A DNA stretch of 64,000 nucleotides, taken from Nostoc sp. CENA543. Lineage in GTDB: Bacteria > Cyanobacteriota > Cyanobacteriia > Cyanobacteriales > Nostocaceae. The stretch spans positions 1,798,001 to 1,862,000 of the forward strand of contig NZ_CP023278.1 of the NCBI RefSeq assembly GCF_002896875.1, in the 5' to 3' direction. Positions within the stretch are counted from its first letter, which is position 1, and each line of letters begins with the position of its first letter. This document shows positions 8,779 to 16,239 of the stretch, in pieces. Both the position numbers and the translations under genes were made by a program. The notes beneath the pieces are model-generated. The model did not search any database. It worked only from the letters and a program-made list of their open reading frames with translations, and had not been told where the DNA came from.

Positions 8779-9210
8779 TTACCCTTGTAGTAAATTTTCC
8801 TTCAAAAGTTGGGCAATCATAGCTGTTCTGGATGTGACACCAAGCTTGACAAATATACGGCGGATGTGTGTAGCCACAGTCCAAGGGCTAATGTGAAGGC
8901 GAATCCCAATTAATTTATTAGGAAGACCTTGTGCAACTAATTGAGCGATCGCCTGTTCGCGAGGACTCAGACTAAACTTTTCTTGAGATTTAGGAATAGA
9001 GCGTACTAGATAATAACGTACTCCATCTACATCAGATTCAAAAATTACTTCATTGAGCATCTGTTCTTGTTCTGTGAGTTTAAGTAGCTTGCAAGGTGTA
9101 GAATCAGAAATTTGTGTCACTAAATCCTTCAGCAAGGATTGTTTCTCAAATGCCAATTTAGTTTCATTATTGGATACATTAATCAGCCTTTTTCTATTTG
9201 AGGGTTTCAT
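8779..9210 (-). CDS. LuxR-type helix-turn-helix transcriptional regulator
   Basis: A 143-residue DNA-binding protein. The C-terminal part carries a LuxR/FixJ HTH: LSPREQAIAQLVAQGLPNK at residues 81-99, recognition region ISPWTVATHIRRIFVKLGV at 107-125. The N-terminal 75 residues form a short region with no receiver aspartate pattern, so this is not a standard response regulator. It is divergent from the E-F-E cluster, with 489 bp between the two start codons, which makes it a reasonable candidate regulator of that cluster. That link is inference from position. Confidence 0.85.
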   Translation of the reverse strand: MKPSNRKRLINVSNNETKLAFEKQSLLKDLVTQISDSTPCKLLKLTEQEQMLNEVIFESDVDGVRYYLVRSIPKSQEKFSLSPREQAIAQLVAQGLPNKLIGIRLHISPWTVATHIRRIFVKLGVTSRTAMIAQLLKENLLQG

Positions 9211-9699: not shown

Positions 9700-10566
9700 A
9701 TGCTGGACGGAGAAACTTTGCAGCATGAGTTCGAGAGTGAATTTGAAAGTGAATTTGAAGGCGAATTTGAAAACGAGTATGAAGGTGAGTACGAAGGCGA
9801 GGAGTTTTTAGGTGGTCTGCTCCGAGGTGTTGGCAGTGCCTTGGGTCTGGGCGAAGGCGAGTACGAATACGAATACGAGTATGAAAATGAATATGAAAGC
9901 GAAGCTTTCTTTGGGAGATTACGCGGAATTGCCAGAAAATTAGCTCCCGTACTCAAAAAAGTTGCCCCAATAGCTGCACGCGCTGTAGGAACAGCTATTG
10001 GTGGGCCAGCAGTTGGTGGTGCATTAGGCACAATTGCGGGTCAACTAGCCCGTGAAGGAGAATTTGAGTACGAATTTGAAAGTGAATTAGAGGGCGAATT
10101 TGAAAGCGAGTACGAATACGAAGCTTTACCACAACCAGAAGCTTTAGCCGAAGTCCTAGCAGCGATGGCCAGCCGGGCGCAAAGTGAGGCGGAAGCCGAA
10201 GCTTATACAGGTGCTTTCACTGCCAGAATTATTCCCATCAAAAATCATGCCATGCGGCAAGTTTCACCCAAATTAATTAAAGGTGCAGCCACATTAACAC
10301 GCACACTGCGTAAATCTCCCTCAACCCGTCCCTTGGTGAAAGCAGTACCGACTATTGTTGCTAGAGCCAGTAACACCCTAGCACGGCAGGCAGCACAAGG
10401 AAAACCCATCTCCAGTCAAACAGCTGCTCGTGTCATGGCGAATGAAACCCAAAAAGTTTTAGCTAATCCGATGACCTGTGCCAAAACTTTAGTACGTTCT
10501 ACCCAAGCAGCGCAAAAGGTTACTAAACCCGCACCCCGGCGTAGAAGAGAGCCAGTTTACGAATAA
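9700..10566 (+). CDS. E-F-E/E-Y-E repeat protein with glycine-zipper-like segment (paralog 1)
   Basis: A 288-residue protein of unrecognised family with an excellent AAGGAGG site. Three acidic/aromatic blocks, in which Glu alternates with Phe or Tyr, lie at residues 9-35, 51-69 and 119-141, with an SEAEAEA tract at 162-168. Between blocks two and three, residues 84-116 are uncharged and Gly/Ala/Ile rich (AVGTAIGGPAVGGALG), resembling a glycine zipper or membrane-active helix. Residues 185-275 form a basic, helical C-terminal domain with SPSTRPLVKAVPTIVARA and QGKPISSQTAARVMA, ending RRRREPVYE. The overall charge is split: acidic front, basic back. Alternating Glu/Phe favours amphipathic beta-strands that can self-assemble. 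No signal peptide is evident. First gene of a six-gene same-strand cluster. Confidence 0.8.
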   Translation: MLDGETLQHEFESEFESEFEGEFENEYEGEYEGEEFLGGLLRGVGSALGLGEGEYEYEYEYENEYESEAFFGRLRGIARKLAPVLKKVAPIAARAVGTAIGGPAVGGALGTIAGQLAREGEFEYEFESELEGEFESEYEYEALPQPEALAEVLAAMASRAQSEAEAEAYTGAFTARIIPIKNHAMRQVSPKLIKGAATLTRTLRKSPSTRPLVKAVPTIVARASNTLARQAAQGKPISSQTAARVMANETQKVLANPMTCAKTLVRSTQAAQKVTKPAPRRRREPVYE

Positions 10567-10634
10567 TAGCGGTTTGGGTTGCGCTCGTACACTACTCAAA
10601 CTAAGGCGTAGCCCATTGCAAATTATGTGAACTA

Positions 10635-10737
10635 ATACCAATTCACAAAAAATTTGATACAGATGCAAACGCTAAAAGTTTTGCTGAGTCTCACTTTCTT
10701 AATTTTGAATTTTGAATTTTGAATTTTGAATTGGTAT
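10635..10737. mobile_element. MITE-like element, about 103 bp, copy 1
   Basis: The element is bounded by the inverted repeat ATACCAATTC (10635-10644) and GAATTGGTAT (10728-10737). Its right part contains four or five gaattttgaat-type repeats. Reading from the left arm, TACCAATTCA is followed by a TTGATACAGA core, which recurs in reverse orientation in the element at 16280-16373. It separates the two E-F-E paralogs. Confidence 0.6.
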
Positions 10738-10819
10738 AAGCCAGAGAGAACATACTGGCGAATTGGCATCAGCGAAAACGTTGACGAGAATCACAAAAAA
10801 TCAACGGGAGGCAAAACAA

Positions 10820-11581
10820 ATGTTTGAATACGAACTAGAGACAGGATTTGATAGAGAATCTGAGTGTGAATTTGCCAATGAATACGAAAGTGAACAATTC
10901 TTCCCACTTTTAGCCCCTTTACTAGCTAAAGCCGCACCAATGGCAATTCAAGCCATTGGCGGCTTGATTGGGCGTGCTTCTAGAAGACGACAACGAGAAT
11001 TTGAATTTGAGTATGAAGGCGAGGAAGAATATGAGGGAGATCCTTTTATCAACAACCTACTAAAAAGTTCTAACAATGGACTAGGTGAGGGTGAAGGTGA
11101 ATATGAATATGAGTATGAGTTTGAGTTAGCAACTAGCTCCATGAGCGAGTATGAAATGGTGATGGAAAATCTCGCATACAGAGCAGCTCACAGCGAGAGT
11201 GAAGCAGAAGCGGAAGCTTTCTTGGGAGCATTAATTCCATTAGCCACGCGATTAATCCCACAAGCAGCGCAAGTATTGACTACTGTAGCTCCATCCTTGA
11301 TTCAAGGTGTCTCTAGAATGGGTCAAACCTGGTATAGAAGTCCCAGAACTCGCCCATTATTGCAAACTGTGCCGCAGATTGTTAAAAGAACTGTCACCAC
11401 AATAGCGAATCAAGCACAGCAAGGTAAACCTGTGTCGCCTAAAACCGCCGTCAGGACATTAGCAGGGAATACAGCTAGAGTTTTGAACAATCCCAAAAAT
11501 GTTGCCCTGGTGATGAAAAATTCCCATAAAGCGCAGCATAGAGTCGCAAAGACGAATGGAAATGGTAAGCGTCGCCCTTAG
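10820..11581 (+). CDS. E-F-E/E-Y-E repeat protein with glycine-zipper-like segment (paralog 2)
   Basis: A 253-residue paralog of the preceding E-F-E protein. I start it at ATG 10820 because GGGAGG lies ten bases upstream; the frame is open to a TTG at 10763. Acidic/aromatic blocks occur at residues 2-25, 60-73 and 90-102, with SESEAEAEAF at 125-134. Residues 30-53 (LLAPLLAKAAPMAIQAIGGLIG) are hydrophobic and Gly/Ala rich. The C-terminal domain, residues 155-240, aligns throughout with paralog 1: SPRTRPLLQTVPQIVKRT matches SPSTRPLVKAVPTIVARA, and QGKPVSPKTAVRTLA matches QGKPISSQTAARVMA. The function is unknown. The repeats are shorter than in paralog 1, as expected for a slippage-prone tract. 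Confidence 0.8.
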   Translation: MFEYELETGFDRESECEFANEYESEQFFPLLAPLLAKAAPMAIQAIGGLIGRASRRRQREFEFEYEGEEEYEGDPFINNLLKSSNNGLGEGEGEYEYEYEFELATSSMSEYEMVMENLAYRAAHSESEAEAEAFLGALIPLATRLIPQAAQVLTTVAPSLIQGVSRMGQTWYRSPRTRPLLQTVPQIVKRTVTTIANQAQQGKPVSPKTAVRTLAGNTARVLNNPKNVALVMKNSHKAQHRVAKTNGNGKRRP

Positions 11582-11627
11582 AGGTGTTCATTGGTCAATC
11601 TAGCTGTTGCAAGGATGATAAAGAATT

Positions 11628-13001
11628 ATGAACGGACTATTAGAAACACTGACATCTCTGGGCGCAGAGAATGATTTTGGCAACCGCAATTCCAGTGCGC
11701 TGGAGAGTTGGGAATTAGGAAGTAATGGCAATGCTAGCCAAAGAAAACTGCCTAGTTTTAAACCTTGGCTCAGGGTGCAAGCGTTAAATGTTGTCAGACA
11801 CGCAGCTGCTTTGCGTCCCTTTCGTCATGATGAATTTGGCACAGATGCTGCTAGTCCTTCAGATGCCCACATTGATGCAGTGAATGAGCTAATTAGTTCG
11901 CTCAGAGTCCAGCTATTGGATATGTCGAAGCGTGTGGGCAGAACTGCGGAAACTGCAATGAACAAGCCGGATACTAGTCATTTGCAACAGCTAATGAAGG
12001 AAAAAGACCAAGCACACGATTGGGTGAGAACCATTGAACAGATTTGGGATTTTTACTTTGAGTTGTTTGGACAAAGACAAACTCAATTTGGTAACTGGTT
12101 GTTAGGTTGCGATCGCATTGCCCTGGATTGCTATCAAGATATTTACATGGGTTTGGGAATGGCTAAATCAATTCCCGCACCTGCGCCGTTTTCGTACATG
12201 AGAACAGGCTTTTCCCCAGCCACCTTTCGCCGTGGTATTCCCTTAACTAAACTAGGGAAGCAAATAAATCCTTTTCCGTTGATTCAGTTACCTTATCACC
12301 GCTTGGTGAATCCTTGGACATTAGGGGCAATTTTGCATGAGGTTTCCCATAACTTACAAACTGATTTAAATCTCCGCCAAGCTGTTCCCCGTGCGATCGC
12401 CCAACGGTTATTAAAAGCGGGAATGAGCCGCAATGTCGCGACAATTTGGACTAATTGGCACAGCGAAACCTTTGCTGATTTATCTGGTTTGTTGCTTGGT
12501 GGCCCGGCAATTGTGGCCTCTTTAATGGATATTGCTGCGCGATCGCCAGAATCTACCCAATATTTTCATCCTGGTGCGCCTCACCCAATCCCCTATTTGC
12601 GCGTCTTCATTAGTGTCGAATTATTACGCCGCATGGGATTTCCCCAAGCTGCCGAGAGATATCGTCAAATGTGGATGCGTATTTATCCTGATACTCGTGC
12701 CGGTAATATTCCATCTGAAGTTCTGGAAACTTTCGATAAAGCAAATAAGCTGGTTGTAGATACTATTTGCTACACTCCTTATCAAGAACTAGGAAACAAG
12801 ACCCTAGCGGAAGTAACGGGATTTAAACCCCAGCACCAACGCATGATTGAGGAAGCTGGCGAACGTTTGGCAGCTGGCAACGATCCAGGGATTATTCCTG
12901 AACGCTTTTTAATTCCAGCGTCGCGTTTGGCACTTGATAGACGGTTAGCAGAACCCAAAATAATTACCAAGAACTTTTACAGTGCTTTAGCAAGGAGATA
13001 A
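11628..13001 (+). CDS. HExxH zincin-like protein of the E-F-E cluster
   Basis: A 457-residue protein with a metallopeptidase-type HEVSH at residues 237-241 (ILHEVSHNLQ) and SETFADLSG at 279-287. In gluzincins the third zinc ligand is a Glu in a downstream E-x-F-A-D-like helix, so H237, E238, H241 and E280 form a plausible active site. A helical N-terminal half (residues 45-180) and a C-terminal region with EVTGFKPQHQRMIEEAGERLA flank the core. No signal peptide is seen, which suggests cytoplasmic action. It begins 46 bp after the second E-F-E gene and ends three bases before the next gene, so translation of the two is probably coupled. Processing of the E-F-E proteins is an attractive role but is inference. 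Confidence 0.75.
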   Translation: MNGLLETLTSLGAENDFGNRNSSALESWELGSNGNASQRKLPSFKPWLRVQALNVVRHAAALRPFRHDEFGTDAASPSDAHIDAVNELISSLRVQLLDMSKRVGRTAETAMNKPDTSHLQQLMKEKDQAHDWVRTIEQIWDFYFELFGQRQTQFGNWLLGCDRIALDCYQDIYMGLGMAKSIPAPAPFSYMRTGFSPATFRRGIPLTKLGKQINPFPLIQLPYHRLVNPWTLGAILHEVSHNLQTDLNLRQAVPRAIAQRLLKAGMSRNVATIWTNWHSETFADLSGLLLGGPAIVASLMDIAARSPESTQYFHPGAPHPIPYLRVFISVELLRRMGFPQAAERYRQMWMRIYPDTRAGNIPSEVLETFDKANKLVVDTICYTPYQELGNKTLAEVTGFKPQHQRMIEEAGERLAAGNDPGIIPERFLIPASRLALDRRLAEPKIITKNFYSALARR

Positions 13002-13004
13002 GCC

Positions 13005-14240
13005 ATGATCATAAGCGACGAAGGTAATGGCAATAGAAAAGTCACTATAGATGTTTTACCAACAGCAAAACAAGTTTCCGATGTTAGTGTGCGTCAAGGT
13101 GCAAATTCCATAGAACCTCAAAATGGAACACTACAAGAAATTGTCAATAGTGCGATCGGTGAAGTCTTAGGCAGAAATATCAATGCCAACGATCCGAAAA
13201 CAGTCTTGACTTCCTTGAAGCAATCTTTTGCTCCTCAAGACAGTAATGGGCGCACCACTTATGTTTGGAATCCTTACACCTATGCCGTACAAACAGAAAG
13301 AGGAGGTGCGCTAACAGGAGCGCAAGCCAGTCTCTACCATCGAGCAAAAGCGGCATTGGAGAGTATCTTACCTCTACTCAACGGTTTAATGCCCCTAAAT
13401 CCAGCCGCAGATATCCAAAATATGGAGGCTGTGCGGTCAATTGTTCGCACCGAAATCAGCGAATTAGTCAATGAAATTCGTCTTGAAGGAGGGCCTCGCA
13501 TCTTAAAAGTTGACAATTTATTTGCCTTACTTTTAGGGGCAGATTTGTCTGGTGCAGAGGTTGGTCAACTGAAAAATATGGCCAACATATTTGGATTTGA
13601 ACGTAATTTCATTAACACCGTTGCAGAAGAGCAGAACTATACCAACTACCTTACTATTTTGGATTATGTAATTTCTTTAAATCAAAGTTGGGCGCGCTAT
13701 AAGCAAGAAACTAGAGACGAAAAATATTTAGGTACACAACTAGTCAAGTTGTCTCGCGCTTTATGTGTTGTAGCAGAATCTGTCAATGAAGTTTACAGAA
13801 TCATGGATTCTGTTTTTTTAGGTTTTGCCGAACGCCAAACGGTGATTATTAAATTTAGGAAAAGGAACTCGTCCACCACAGAAGGATATTTCTCCGACAA
13901 TCAGGACATGGAGTTGTCTTTAGAAGAATTACTTTCTTGGGTTAAAGAGTTTGCCACTTTTGAAGGTCAAGCACTGGCTAAAGGCGGAGGAAAATTAGCG
14001 ATCGCCGAGGTTGTGAAAGAAACTGCCAAACAATTAGCAGATTTAGTCACGGCAACTTCTGATGCACCAATTAGTCACTCTGCATTTAAACGAGCAGGCG
14101 TTATCGACTCCCTCAAAGATTTAGCCGATCAACTGCGTGAAGTCAGCACTTTAGCAGGGCAAGTCAAGCGCGAGCAAAATATCAATGTACCCAGCCCTGC
14201 AATCCTAAATCCCCCTTCTCAACAATTTCCTCCCCAATAA
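13005..14240 (+). CDS. hypothetical helical protein, 411 aa (E-F-E cluster)
   Basis: I do not recognise a family. The protein has no membrane segment or signal peptide. Residues 125-165 and 225-285 look alpha-helical with regular hydrophobic spacing (AALESILPLLNGLMPL, LVKLSRALCVVAESVNEVYRIMDSVFLGF). The end is a short proline/glutamine tail (PPSQQFPPQ). An AAGGAGATAAGCC site overlaps the stop codon of the zincin-like gene, with only three bases between the frames. That tight coupling argues that the two products are needed together. Confidence 0.7.
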   Translation: MIISDEGNGNRKVTIDVLPTAKQVSDVSVRQGANSIEPQNGTLQEIVNSAIGEVLGRNINANDPKTVLTSLKQSFAPQDSNGRTTYVWNPYTYAVQTERGGALTGAQASLYHRAKAALESILPLLNGLMPLNPAADIQNMEAVRSIVRTEISELVNEIRLEGGPRILKVDNLFALLLGADLSGAEVGQLKNMANIFGFERNFINTVAEEQNYTNYLTILDYVISLNQSWARYKQETRDEKYLGTQLVKLSRALCVVAESVNEVYRIMDSVFLGFAERQTVIIKFRKRNSSTTEGYFSDNQDMELSLEELLSWVKEFATFEGQALAKGGGKLAIAEVVKETAKQLADLVTATSDAPISHSAFKRAGVIDSLKDLADQLREVSTLAGQVKREQNINVPSPAILNPPSQQFPPQ

Positions 14241-14319
14241 GATTAGCTAAATCAACAGCTAATCATTGACTCTATTTCACAGCAGTGTCACCTGACCAAT
14301 TCAATTAGGAGACCAAATT

Positions 14320-15471
14320 ATGGCAACGGCAGGAGAAAATCAAAGTTTATACGATCGCATTGCAGCACTGCGAGAAACTCTCACCGATAAACTCGCACCG
14401 CAACTGATTCAAAATCCCCAATTGGCTGATGCTTTAACTCAGCAAATTGAAAGCATGGTATCTCAGCTGGTAGCAGCCCAAACCCAAACCCCAGCACCGC
14501 CCGATGGTGGCTTGGCTGAGTTAATTGGTCTTGGTAACGAAGCTGCGGCTAACATCAGTGCCACCCGCTTACCTGAAGGTGTTCAAGATTACGACGAGCA
14601 AGTTTCCTCGGAACGAATTCTGGCAGTAGCTGACCTTTATTACCTCTATCAGCATGAGAAGTTAGGCGTGTTTCGCGCCGTCAAAAAACTGCAAGAACTA
14701 TTCAATGCTGGGGCGGTGAGATTATCCACTGGTGATGGTGCTTACGGTTTGTATCGTTTTGATCGTCGTAGCCTGTTGCGCTACACCGAAAAAGACCGAA
14801 TGCAGGCTTACCGCAGGGTATTAGGTTACACCACAATTAAACCAGCACCTAGTGCCAAACCTAATACACAATTTCACACTTTGTTCACTCATTTTATTAA
14901 TAATGTCGCTGATTTCTGGCGCGATAAACGCATTTCTGATGTGATTCGTGAAAGAGCTTTTGACCCTAGTTTTGGTAGTATTGCCACCATCAGACGTTCT
15001 GGTTTGGATCTGCGTAATAACTTGAAATGGGCTTCTTACGGTCATGTCAATGTTTTACGGATTGAAGTATTACAGCTATTGGAAGAAGCTTTTAAAATTC
15101 TCGGTGCAGATGATATACGCAAACTTTTTGGAGCTGATAACGCTTGGGACGTAGTTGAAGAAGTAATGTTACGCTACTTCAATGAAAATGTTGATGCTTC
15201 CCAGCGTCACCGCATGGCAGTTGCGGGTAGGAGTACCATCCGTTGGTTAGCGCAAAAATATCTCCTGAATACTTCTCGTGCTGAGTTTGAAGCATTACTG
15301 CGAGAAATTGCGGATGTGGCAGAAGAATGGCTTACCAGTGCTGAAACTTTGGGTATTGCTTATCGCGGTCATACACAAAAAGTTGTGACGCTTGATCCTC
15401 GTCAGAATGGACACAATGGATACAACGGACACCAGAGAAGCAGAAAACTCAGAGGTGTAGAACAAATCTAA
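14320..15471 (+). CDS. hypothetical helical protein, 383 aa (E-F-E cluster)
   Basis: Unrecognised protein with a good TAGGAGACC site. The N-terminal 60 residues are helical and glutamine rich (DKLAPQLIQNPQLADALTQQ). The middle has YLYQHEKLGVFRAVKKLQELF and FWRDKRISDVIRERAFD. The C-terminus ends in a short NGHNGYNGH tract and basic residues. No transmembrane segment is seen. It lies 79 bp after the preceding cluster gene on the same strand. Possible structural or adaptor protein, but nothing in the sequence proves it. Confidence 0.7.
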   Translation: MATAGENQSLYDRIAALRETLTDKLAPQLIQNPQLADALTQQIESMVSQLVAAQTQTPAPPDGGLAELIGLGNEAAANISATRLPEGVQDYDEQVSSERILAVADLYYLYQHEKLGVFRAVKKLQELFNAGAVRLSTGDGAYGLYRFDRRSLLRYTEKDRMQAYRRVLGYTTIKPAPSAKPNTQFHTLFTHFINNVADFWRDKRISDVIRERAFDPSFGSIATIRRSGLDLRNNLKWASYGHVNVLRIEVLQLLEEAFKILGADDIRKLFGADNAWDVVEEVMLRYFNENVDASQRHRMAVAGRSTIRWLAQKYLLNTSRAEFEALLREIADVAEEWLTSAETLGIAYRGHTQKVVTLDPRQNGHNGYNGHQRSRKLRGVEQI

Positions 15472-15573
15472 AGCAAGAGTTCAAATTACACCCAGAAAAA
15501 TACCTATCCCAATTGAGTACCATACATATCTTTGGGATTTTGACTCAATCAAAATTGCAGAGGAAAAATCATC

Positions 15574-16239
15574 ATGTCTATTTTCGTATGGAAAGGTTCC
15601 ACACCAGATGGATACACTTTGTTATTATCTCGTGATGGACTAGTGAAAATCACCGCTAACTTAAAACAAACAGGGTTAGAAAGTTTAGTTAAAAGCAATA
15701 TGAACGGCACTCTTGAAGGTAGTGTTACTCGCTCCATTGCGCTAATTGTTAATAATGCCAAACGTTCAGGCACTTTATCTAGTCCTAAATTTGGTAACAA
15801 TCTCAGAGTTTTTGCTGCTGTTGGTAAAACTGGTAACTATCAGATTTTAACGGAACCCATTGATGAGAAAACAAGTTTAATTATTTTTGTCAAACGACAA
15901 CCAAAATTAGTTAACAGAGAATTTGAGATGGAATTAGAAACTAATTTAGAAAGCGATTATGAATACATAAATGAGGGAGAGTTGGAAGAAGTTTGGCGAG
16001 AAATCGAGTACATGAGCCAAGGCAAAGGAGGTAAGAATAAAAATCAGAGTCCATCAAACCAAGGAGTCAAGGGAGGCCACAATACAAGCAAGAGTCCATC
16101 AAAAAGACAAAAGCATCAAATAGGAGAAGCGCGCAGACACAAGGATCAGAATGTCAACCCTGGATGGCGTGAATATAAGAAGCGTGGGGGTAAGTTAGGC
16201 CCAGATGCTTGGGTTAAGGCAGGAAAACCGAGAAGATAG
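15574..16239 (+). CDS. small protein joining an E-F-E block to a basic C-terminal tail
   Basis: A 221-residue protein with no recognised family. Residues 1-110 form a compact beta-rich domain (MSIFVWKGSTPDGYTLLLSR, then SLIIFVKRQPKL). Residues 116-147 repeat the acidic/aromatic style of the two E-F-E paralogs (REFEMELETNLESDYEY). From residue 150 the chain becomes strongly basic, Gly/Lys/Ser rich, and ends GWREYKKRGGKLGPDAWVKAGKPRR after an HQIGEARRHK motif. The tail could bind nucleic acid or act as a toxin-like domain, but I cannot assign it. The shared E-F-E block ties it to the upstream genes. It is the last gene of the cluster. Confidence 0.7.
   Translation: MSIFVWKGSTPDGYTLLLSRDGLVKITANLKQTGLESLVKSNMNGTLEGSVTRSIALIVNNAKRSGTLSSPKFGNNLRVFAAVGKTGNYQILTEPIDEKTSLIIFVKRQPKLVNREFEMELETNLESDYEYINEGELEEVWREIEYMSQGKGGKNKNQSPSNQGVKGGHNTSKSPSKRQKHQIGEARRHKDQNVNPGWREYKKRGGKLGPDAWVKAGKPRR

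Follow-up and report, generated by a model that had tools for sequence, protein, structure and literature searches.

What do six consecutive genes of a cyanobacterium encode when their products match no known family, and do they work as one system? The genes in question occupy positions 9700-16239 on the forward strand of a 64,000-nucleotide stretch of Nostoc sp. CENA543 (contig NZ_CP023278.1, positions 1,798,001 to 1,862,000), which is called the window here and whose numbering is used for its genes. They code for two acidic-aromatic proteins (E1 and E2), a zincin-like protein (Z), two further proteins (p4 and p5) and a last product (p6) that we treat as cargo. In this study, we concluded that these genes form a real, undescribed operon, which at a probability of roughly 55% is a mobile LuxR-controlled operon for tag-directed effector sorting and delivery. 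The operon is called undescribed because no description of it was recognised from titles and abstract starts in one open-access library, and because Pfam, NCBIfam, PADLOC and PHROGs matched the six products only below threshold (best E 0.02), none of these matches being credible. Nothing in these four family libraries placed the six genes in unrelated known families, and a text search for the motif strings EFEFE (with cyanobacteria) and LFEAP returned unrelated work only.

According to the delivery reading, leaderless effector enzymes and two membrane-associated E proteins would carry a common acidic-aromatic or LFExP tag, usually near the N-terminus. The tag would be recognised by p4 and/or p5, with a small protein where one is present, and E and cargo would thereby be gathered. 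E would then bring the assembly to or through the membrane by its glycine-zipper hairpin and basic helical domain, Z would trim or release the clients, and the LuxR-type regulator would control the operon. The mobility of the operon and the export, processing, assembly and target of its clients are what we infer from the observations set out below.

A conserved operon with a fixed gene order

All six open reading frames (ORFs) are present on the same strand, with gaps of 3 to 253 bases between them, and ribosome-binding-like sequence was seen by eye before likely starts (aaggaggcacatATG at 9700, gggaggcaaaacaaATG at 10820 and aaggagataagccATG at 13005), in agreement with the sequence-only reading from which this analysis set out. 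The ORF of the second gene opens with TTG at 10763; the ATG at 10820 is the more likely start, and the TTG was set aside. A seventh probable member, overlooked in that reading, is a LuxR/GerE-type regulator of 143 amino acids (aa) at 8779-9210 on the reverse strand, divergent from the operon (PF00196 GerE, 60.5 bits), of which four orthologs were aligned. The layout of the operon is thus LuxR, E, E, zincin, in some loci a small protein, p4, p5 and variable cargo.

A search for the zincin in 59 genomes, the window's own included, gave matches in 5. The gene order was the same in three of the other four zincin loci and also in a Paraburkholderia plasmid, and the fourth locus (L013) held a zincin 24% identical to Z and no recognised E, p4 or p5. 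When a genome collection was scanned with a p5 profile, 95 relatives were confirmed and the best 80 of the 95 were analysed; together with the window and five others they make up 86 loci, two of which (L010 and L023) are the same locus, and the ORFs of the relatives were called mechanically. Across the 86 loci, matches were found to E in 75, Z in 77, p4 in 81, p5 in 83 and a LuxR-type regulator in 69, the last by a profile that may also catch unrelated LuxR regulators. A strict set was formed from those of the 80 loci, 62 in number, in which a p5 ORF is preceded by at least 7 kb of sequence, 15 having been dropped for short upstream sequence and 3 for having no p5 ORF. The presence of p5 in these loci is no evidence, because p5 selected them. 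E was found in 59 of the 62, Z and p4 in 61 each and a LuxR-type match in 57, with two E genes in 46, and some of the counted loci are near copies. E, Z and p4 occurred together in 57 of the 62 loci, spread over several phyla, which is the conserved co-occurrence across distant genomes that had been named beforehand as support for a system. The order E, Z, p4, p5 held in all 57 of the loci with all four; of the five exceptions, three lack E, one lacks Z and one lacks p4. Furthermore, the distances among p5, Z and p4 relatives were correlated (Mantel r 0.84-0.88; 0/500 permutations; 72 loci, with the locus L010/L023 counted twice), so that the three proteins diverged together.

By record names, the hosts are Cyanobacteria (one Vampirovibrio among them), Acidobacteria, Actinobacteria and Chloroflexi, with three Proteobacteria and one each of Verrucomicrobia, Armatimonadetes and Phycisphaera. 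In a p5 tree (79 rows, quick method), the rows group by phylum, the Cyanobacteria form two supported groups apart from each other, and the p5 of the Paraburkholderia plasmid grouped with acidobacterial p5; such patterns are no proof of transfer. A contig labelled Nevskia soli (Gammaproteobacteria; L034) also groups with acidobacterial p5 and may be mis-binned rather than a case of transfer. The operon is patchy in its distribution, since p5 was found in only 6 of 386 sampled genomes of the window's phylum, its own genome included. A phage origin is unsupported: p5 had no match in 50,697 phage records, and all 61 candidate stretches for Z in viral contigs failed confirmation.

The E proteins, the zincin and their partners

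E1 (288 aa, 9700-10566) and E2 (253 aa from the likely ATG, 10820-11581) are full-length paralogs, 35-38% identical. E1 has 17 E-[FYW]-E motifs, against a mean of 0.53 and a maximum of 4 in 2000 shuffles, and E2 has 11 (shuffled mean 0.27, maximum 3), while the other 51 of the 53 mechanical gene calls of at least 100 aa in the window have at most one each. The N-terminal E-F-E/E-Y-E block of E1 (9724-9804) is a putative address tag. The earlier suggestion that three of the six products share such acidic/aromatic blocks therefore stands fully for genes 1 and 2 but only loosely for gene 6, whose block is weak and internal.

In an AlphaFold model of E1 (residues 27-288), the acidic blocks have low confidence, a helical hairpin lies over the glycine zipper (residues 67-119, 9898-10056; block values of the predicted local distance difference test, pLDDT, mostly 82-91), and a six-helix domain forms the C-terminus (10132-10527; block pLDDT mostly 91-97). 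The C-terminal domain contains a conserved SEAEAEA motif in nearly invariant alignment columns. The net charge is -20 over the first 60 residues, +6 over the hairpin and +16 over the last 143 residues. The two paralogs thus have the glycine zipper and basic helical C-terminus that had been read from their sequences. No fold match for the E1 model was found in PDB at E<=0.001 (Foldseek).

This architecture has a precedent in the contact-dependent Cdz bacteriocin of Caulobacter, a pair of glycine-zipper proteins of patchy distribution; in the accessible text of its description, CdzC/D are 84-86 aa and are accompanied by a type I exporter and an immunity protein (PMC5380434). E1 and E2 could accordingly be read as a peptide or two-protein bacteriocin, that is, as membrane-active precursors shielded by their acidic blocks and activated by the zincin, with the cargo enzymes as accessories. 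The hairpin, the basic C-terminus, the acidic blocks and the frequency of paired E genes in the strict set are all in keeping with this. However, the window E proteins, with their confidently modelled C-terminal domain, are not small peptides, no type I exporter was recognised among the six products and no immunity gene is evident, and tags on unrelated enzymes would be left unexplained. We regard a bacteriocin as quite improbable.

Z (457 aa, 11628-13001) carries the zinc-binding motif HEVSH (12336-12350) and the sequence SETFAD, the zincin pattern that had been noticed in the sequence-only reading. An HExxH motif with a downstream glutamate is the gluzincin pattern, as in thermolysin. H237, E238, H241, E280, D284 and H319 were invariant in 45 of 45 aligned rows, chosen for mutual difference and including one only 23% identical, and E280 is probably the downstream glutamate zinc ligand. 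By residue conservation, Z is probably a gluzincin-like zincin metallopeptidase; no Pfam or NCBIfam family matched it at E<=1. A Z profile searched against PDB sequences had no peptidase among its 15 matches, and the best of them (ribosomal eL39, E 0.0071) was set aside as chance.

Z also carries HExxHxxQ, which according to the accessible part of one report belongs to the signature of the PVC metallopeptidase (PMC3482391), and the window's genome has four matches to eCIS_core (PF13699) and two to a sheath family (PF04984). It is therefore conceivable that the operon serves as an accessory that loads cargo into an extracellular contractile injection system whose genes lie elsewhere in the genome. 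Z had no Pfam match to eCIS_core, and when it was compared by hhalign with 23 HExxHxxQ segments from eCIS_core loci, only 8 columns were aligned, at a probability of 0.4%, so the likeness of Z to the PVC metallopeptidase is unsupported. The sheath matches lie more than 600 kb from the operon, and two operon-bearing genomes (G066 and G161) have none. Of 7 genomes with the operon, 5 had sheath-family matches, as did 10 of 13 without it; there is therefore no association with contractile systems, a link to contractile or type VI systems is unsupported, and the accessory role is highly unlikely. Two of the four eCIS_core matches lie together in one region of the window's genome (L137, G000:C1:15000-33000), which also has an ORF that looks AAA-like by eye.

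The two proteins between Z and the cargo are p4 (411 aa, 13005-14240), several relatives of which are longer at the N-terminus, and p5 (383 aa, 14320-15471), the best conserved of the aligned members. The p5 model is all-helical, with a mean pLDDT of 77, and had no PDB fold match at E<=0.001 (Foldseek). Profile matches to PDB sequences were set aside as chance for both proteins: two for p4 (E 0.34 and 0.44) and, for p5, a type III antifreeze protein (E 0.0094 over 42 positions). The longer p4 relative of L010, the only one scanned, gave a weak transthyretin-like match (TTR-52, 22.9 bits against a cut-off of 24.9).

Shared tags and cargo enzymes

The E proteins and the genes downstream of p5 are linked by short motifs. 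In one cyanobacterial clade, E starts with variants of ...ALFEAP and the cargo with variants of ...QWLFEAP. Of 33 loci below 64% GC (guanine plus cytosine), 8 had LFExP in E as well as in cargo and 24 lacked it in both, and in 1, a short contig without E, only the cargo carried it. Counted among the 24 are a contig without E (L088), the locus entered twice (L010, L023) and a locus (L080) whose E and cargo have the motif beyond the first 100 residues, the limit applied. With the tag removed, the 14 LFExP cargos sort into 11 groups that do not match one another by BLAST at E<=1e-3, and in 13 of the 14 the tag begins within the first 30 residues. A wider tag rule was applied to three lineage groups, which comprise 44 of the 86 loci. 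It marked 21 of the 38 ORFs that follow p5 (5/13, 12/15 and 4/10 by lineage group) and 7 of the 262 remaining non-core ORFs in these loci, six of the seven resembling system proteins by eye. As far as these sequences indicate, the dissimilarity among tagged cargos is a stronger argument than the tag counts.

Tagged proteins also stand apart from the cargo positions. An orphan 144-aa protein (L012:19039-19473) bears the tag QWLFETP, matches GIY-YIG weakly, at a sub-threshold 16.6 bits, and lies about 2.8 kb past the last operon cargo, with Uma2-like genes, recognised by eye, between; it suggests that tagged cargo occurs away from the operon. An acidobacterial locus (L028) has three further tagged ORFs, starting at 13134, 14036 and 14721, downstream of p5, with N-termini of the ELELEAELEELM type, which fall outside the cargo rule.

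The variable genes downstream of p5 include leaderless wall hydrolases, proteases and nucleases. Thirty cargo candidates were chosen by eye (27 of 118 ORFs after p5, two E-like ORFs after p5 and one from L013), and 17 of them had a domain above a Pfam cut-off. Wall-binding, wall-cutting or OmpA-type domains account for 12 of these, M35 and trypsin proteases for 4 and a GIY-YIG nuclease for 1. The wall-type domains were peptidoglycan-binding, OmpA, M15-type, amidase, DUF2272, DUF4056 and extensin-like, of which we take OmpA, DUF2272 and extensin-like domains to act on the cell wall. A looser scan of ten proteins (four of the 30 and six others) brought one more above the cut-off, the nuclease of L017 described below. 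So many wall-directed domains, together with the weak transthyretin-like match in a p4 relative, would also suit an ordinary operon for remodelling the host's own wall or surface, in which the tags were anchors. Housekeeping of this kind would hardly be expected from p5 in 6 of 386 genomes of the phylum, nor from cargo with nuclease and protease domains and variable C-termini, and we give it very little credence.

The window's own cargo, p6 (221 aa, 15574-16239), belongs to a family in which the first approximately 105 residues are common to p6 and its relatives in L017 and L022, followed by three different, non-homologous C-termini. The L017 relative ends in Endonuclea_NS_2, a DNA/RNA non-specific endonuclease domain (27.6 bits; cut-off 27), and the C-termini of p6 and the L022 relative have no family match; the basic C-terminal region of p6 (16021-16236) is a candidate toxin domain. 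With a constant N-terminus and variable C-termini in its three members, p6 is, by its sequence, polymorphic-toxin-like. The acidic block of p6 (15919-16008, REFEMELETNLESDYEYINEGELEE) is real and contains a single strict E-[FYW]-E, where shuffling gave a mean of 0.10 and a maximum of 3. Of the two functional readings proposed earlier, the one in which an E-F-E block common to several products targets or docks cargo such as p6 is supported: relatives do carry one motif on E and on unrelated cargo, and p6 has the family structure of a cargo with a nuclease-bearing member, but its own block is weak and internal. The other, in which the cluster would make self-assembling or membrane-active precursors for the zincin to process, may also hold. 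Known polymorphic toxins, including those delivered by PVC or eCIS particles, likewise combine a constant N-terminus with variable C-terminal enzyme domains, and those with the PVC metallopeptidase have an HExxH peptidase beside the toxins and a broad phyletic spread. In contrast, Z is a separate protein, barely similar to eCIS_core at the profile level, the tag here is a short linear motif, and no known delivery component was recognised among the scanned proteins. In a Scytonema relative (L010:5300-6220), a degraded p6 relative with an in-frame stop follows p5; the cargo slot can therefore decay while the core stays intact.

No leader-like hydrophobic N-terminus was detected in any of the 30 cargo candidates by a crude test with no control, and a transmembrane-like stretch outside the N-terminus was present in one. 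The lack of leaders, and of any recognised export gene in the operon, is also what would be expected if the tags self-assembled inside the cell and gathered E and hydrolases there, so that the cell or a sister were lysed on a LuxR signal. Many of the hosts are filamentous, as are those of BASS/BELL amyloid signalling, in which, according to the available text of PMC7889193, a short motif is also common to neighbouring genes and one partner is a helical membrane-type protein. On the other hand, the tags here are highly acidic or of the LFExP type, and the operon has many enzymatic cargos and its own peptidase. That available text names neither a zincin nor large helical proteins among the parts of BASS, and inspection by eye, without a search aimed at it, showed no NLR beside the operon. 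Intracellular self-lysis is, in our view, unlikely.

Sorting and delivery by a tag would account for the fixed operon, the joint divergence of p5, Z and p4, the intact zincin residues and the motifs common to E and dissimilar cargo. A comparable principle is found in PEP-CTERM/exosortase and in the type IX secretion system (T9SS), where one short tag unites unrelated cargo and a dedicated peptidase acts, as Z presumably does here. Their sorting tags are C-terminal and their cargo has Sec leaders, whereas the tag described here is mostly N-terminal, no leaders were seen and the peptidase is a zincin. Tentatively, the operon may even represent a new class of delivery unlike the numbered secretion and injection systems, in which the tag would send leaderless effectors and membrane-inserting E into a p4/p5 assembly matured by the zincin.

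Several observations weigh against sorting and delivery. The E hairpins are only moderately hydrophobic (maximum 19-residue Kyte-Doolittle value 1.31 in E1 and 1.45 in E2), less so than usual transmembrane segments, and with the family libraries none of the operon products was recognised as an ATPase, a channel or a membrane protein. That all cargos are tagged can be rejected: 17 of the 38 cargo ORFs are untagged by the wider rule, p6 and its block among them, and none of 18 is tagged in loci above 64% GC, where ORFs cannot be called reliably by mechanical means. The tags agree along clades; therefore, the loci are not independent, and Fisher values overstate independence because the loci are related. 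Thirteen of the 30 scanned cargos have no domain over the cut-off, and no ORF of at least 60 aa lies between p6 and the next window gene to act as an immunity gene; in L022, a 110-aa ORF follows the p6 relative.

A multi-gene system whose order is conserved over several phyla, and whose six window products are matched only below threshold in four family libraries, is rare. Its tag would allow clients, orphan ones included, to be predicted from the first dozens of residues. If export is true, the operon would give cyanobacteria, actinomycetes and acidobacteria a further delivery route for enzymes that cut walls and nucleic acids; otherwise it would represent a new way for bacteria to gather lytic enzymes intracellularly.

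Companion genes, repeats and distant kin

An ORF of 150-250 aa lies between Z and p4 in 27 of the 74 relatives listed, mutual homology having been shown for four of these small ORFs only. M20 peptidases (42 ORFs in 40 of the 86 loci) and amidohydrolases (28 of the 86 loci) are frequent companions, one of each having been assigned by Pfam. Between E1 and E2, the window has short AATTTTGAATTTTGAATT repeats (10640-10745), and similar short repeats follow gene 6. Repeats of this kind are common in filamentous cyanobacteria.

Divergent p5 relatives occur together with S8 peptidases in a Tolypothrix plasmid, in Burkholderia pyrrocinia and in genome G225, and one or other of these loci also has an alpha/beta hydrolase, a peptidoglycan-binding protein, an amidase or a patatin. 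The two p5-like plasmid loci, L107:9492-20710 (Tolypothrix) and L108:2692-23939 (Burkholderia pyrrocinia), contain subtilase, hydrolase, peptidoglycan-binding, amidase and patatin genes and several unassigned proteins. Divergent zincins in rhizobial plasmids occur together with CHAT, patatin, PLD or C25 peptidase genes. These loci suggest a larger superfamily of similar cassettes. Beside the divergent zincin of L013, an 833-aa protein (L013:6776-9277) has a long, strongly basic stretch that by eye resembles cationic membrane-active peptides, and its SPF motifs are common to a nearby 865-aa protein with a trypsin-like domain.

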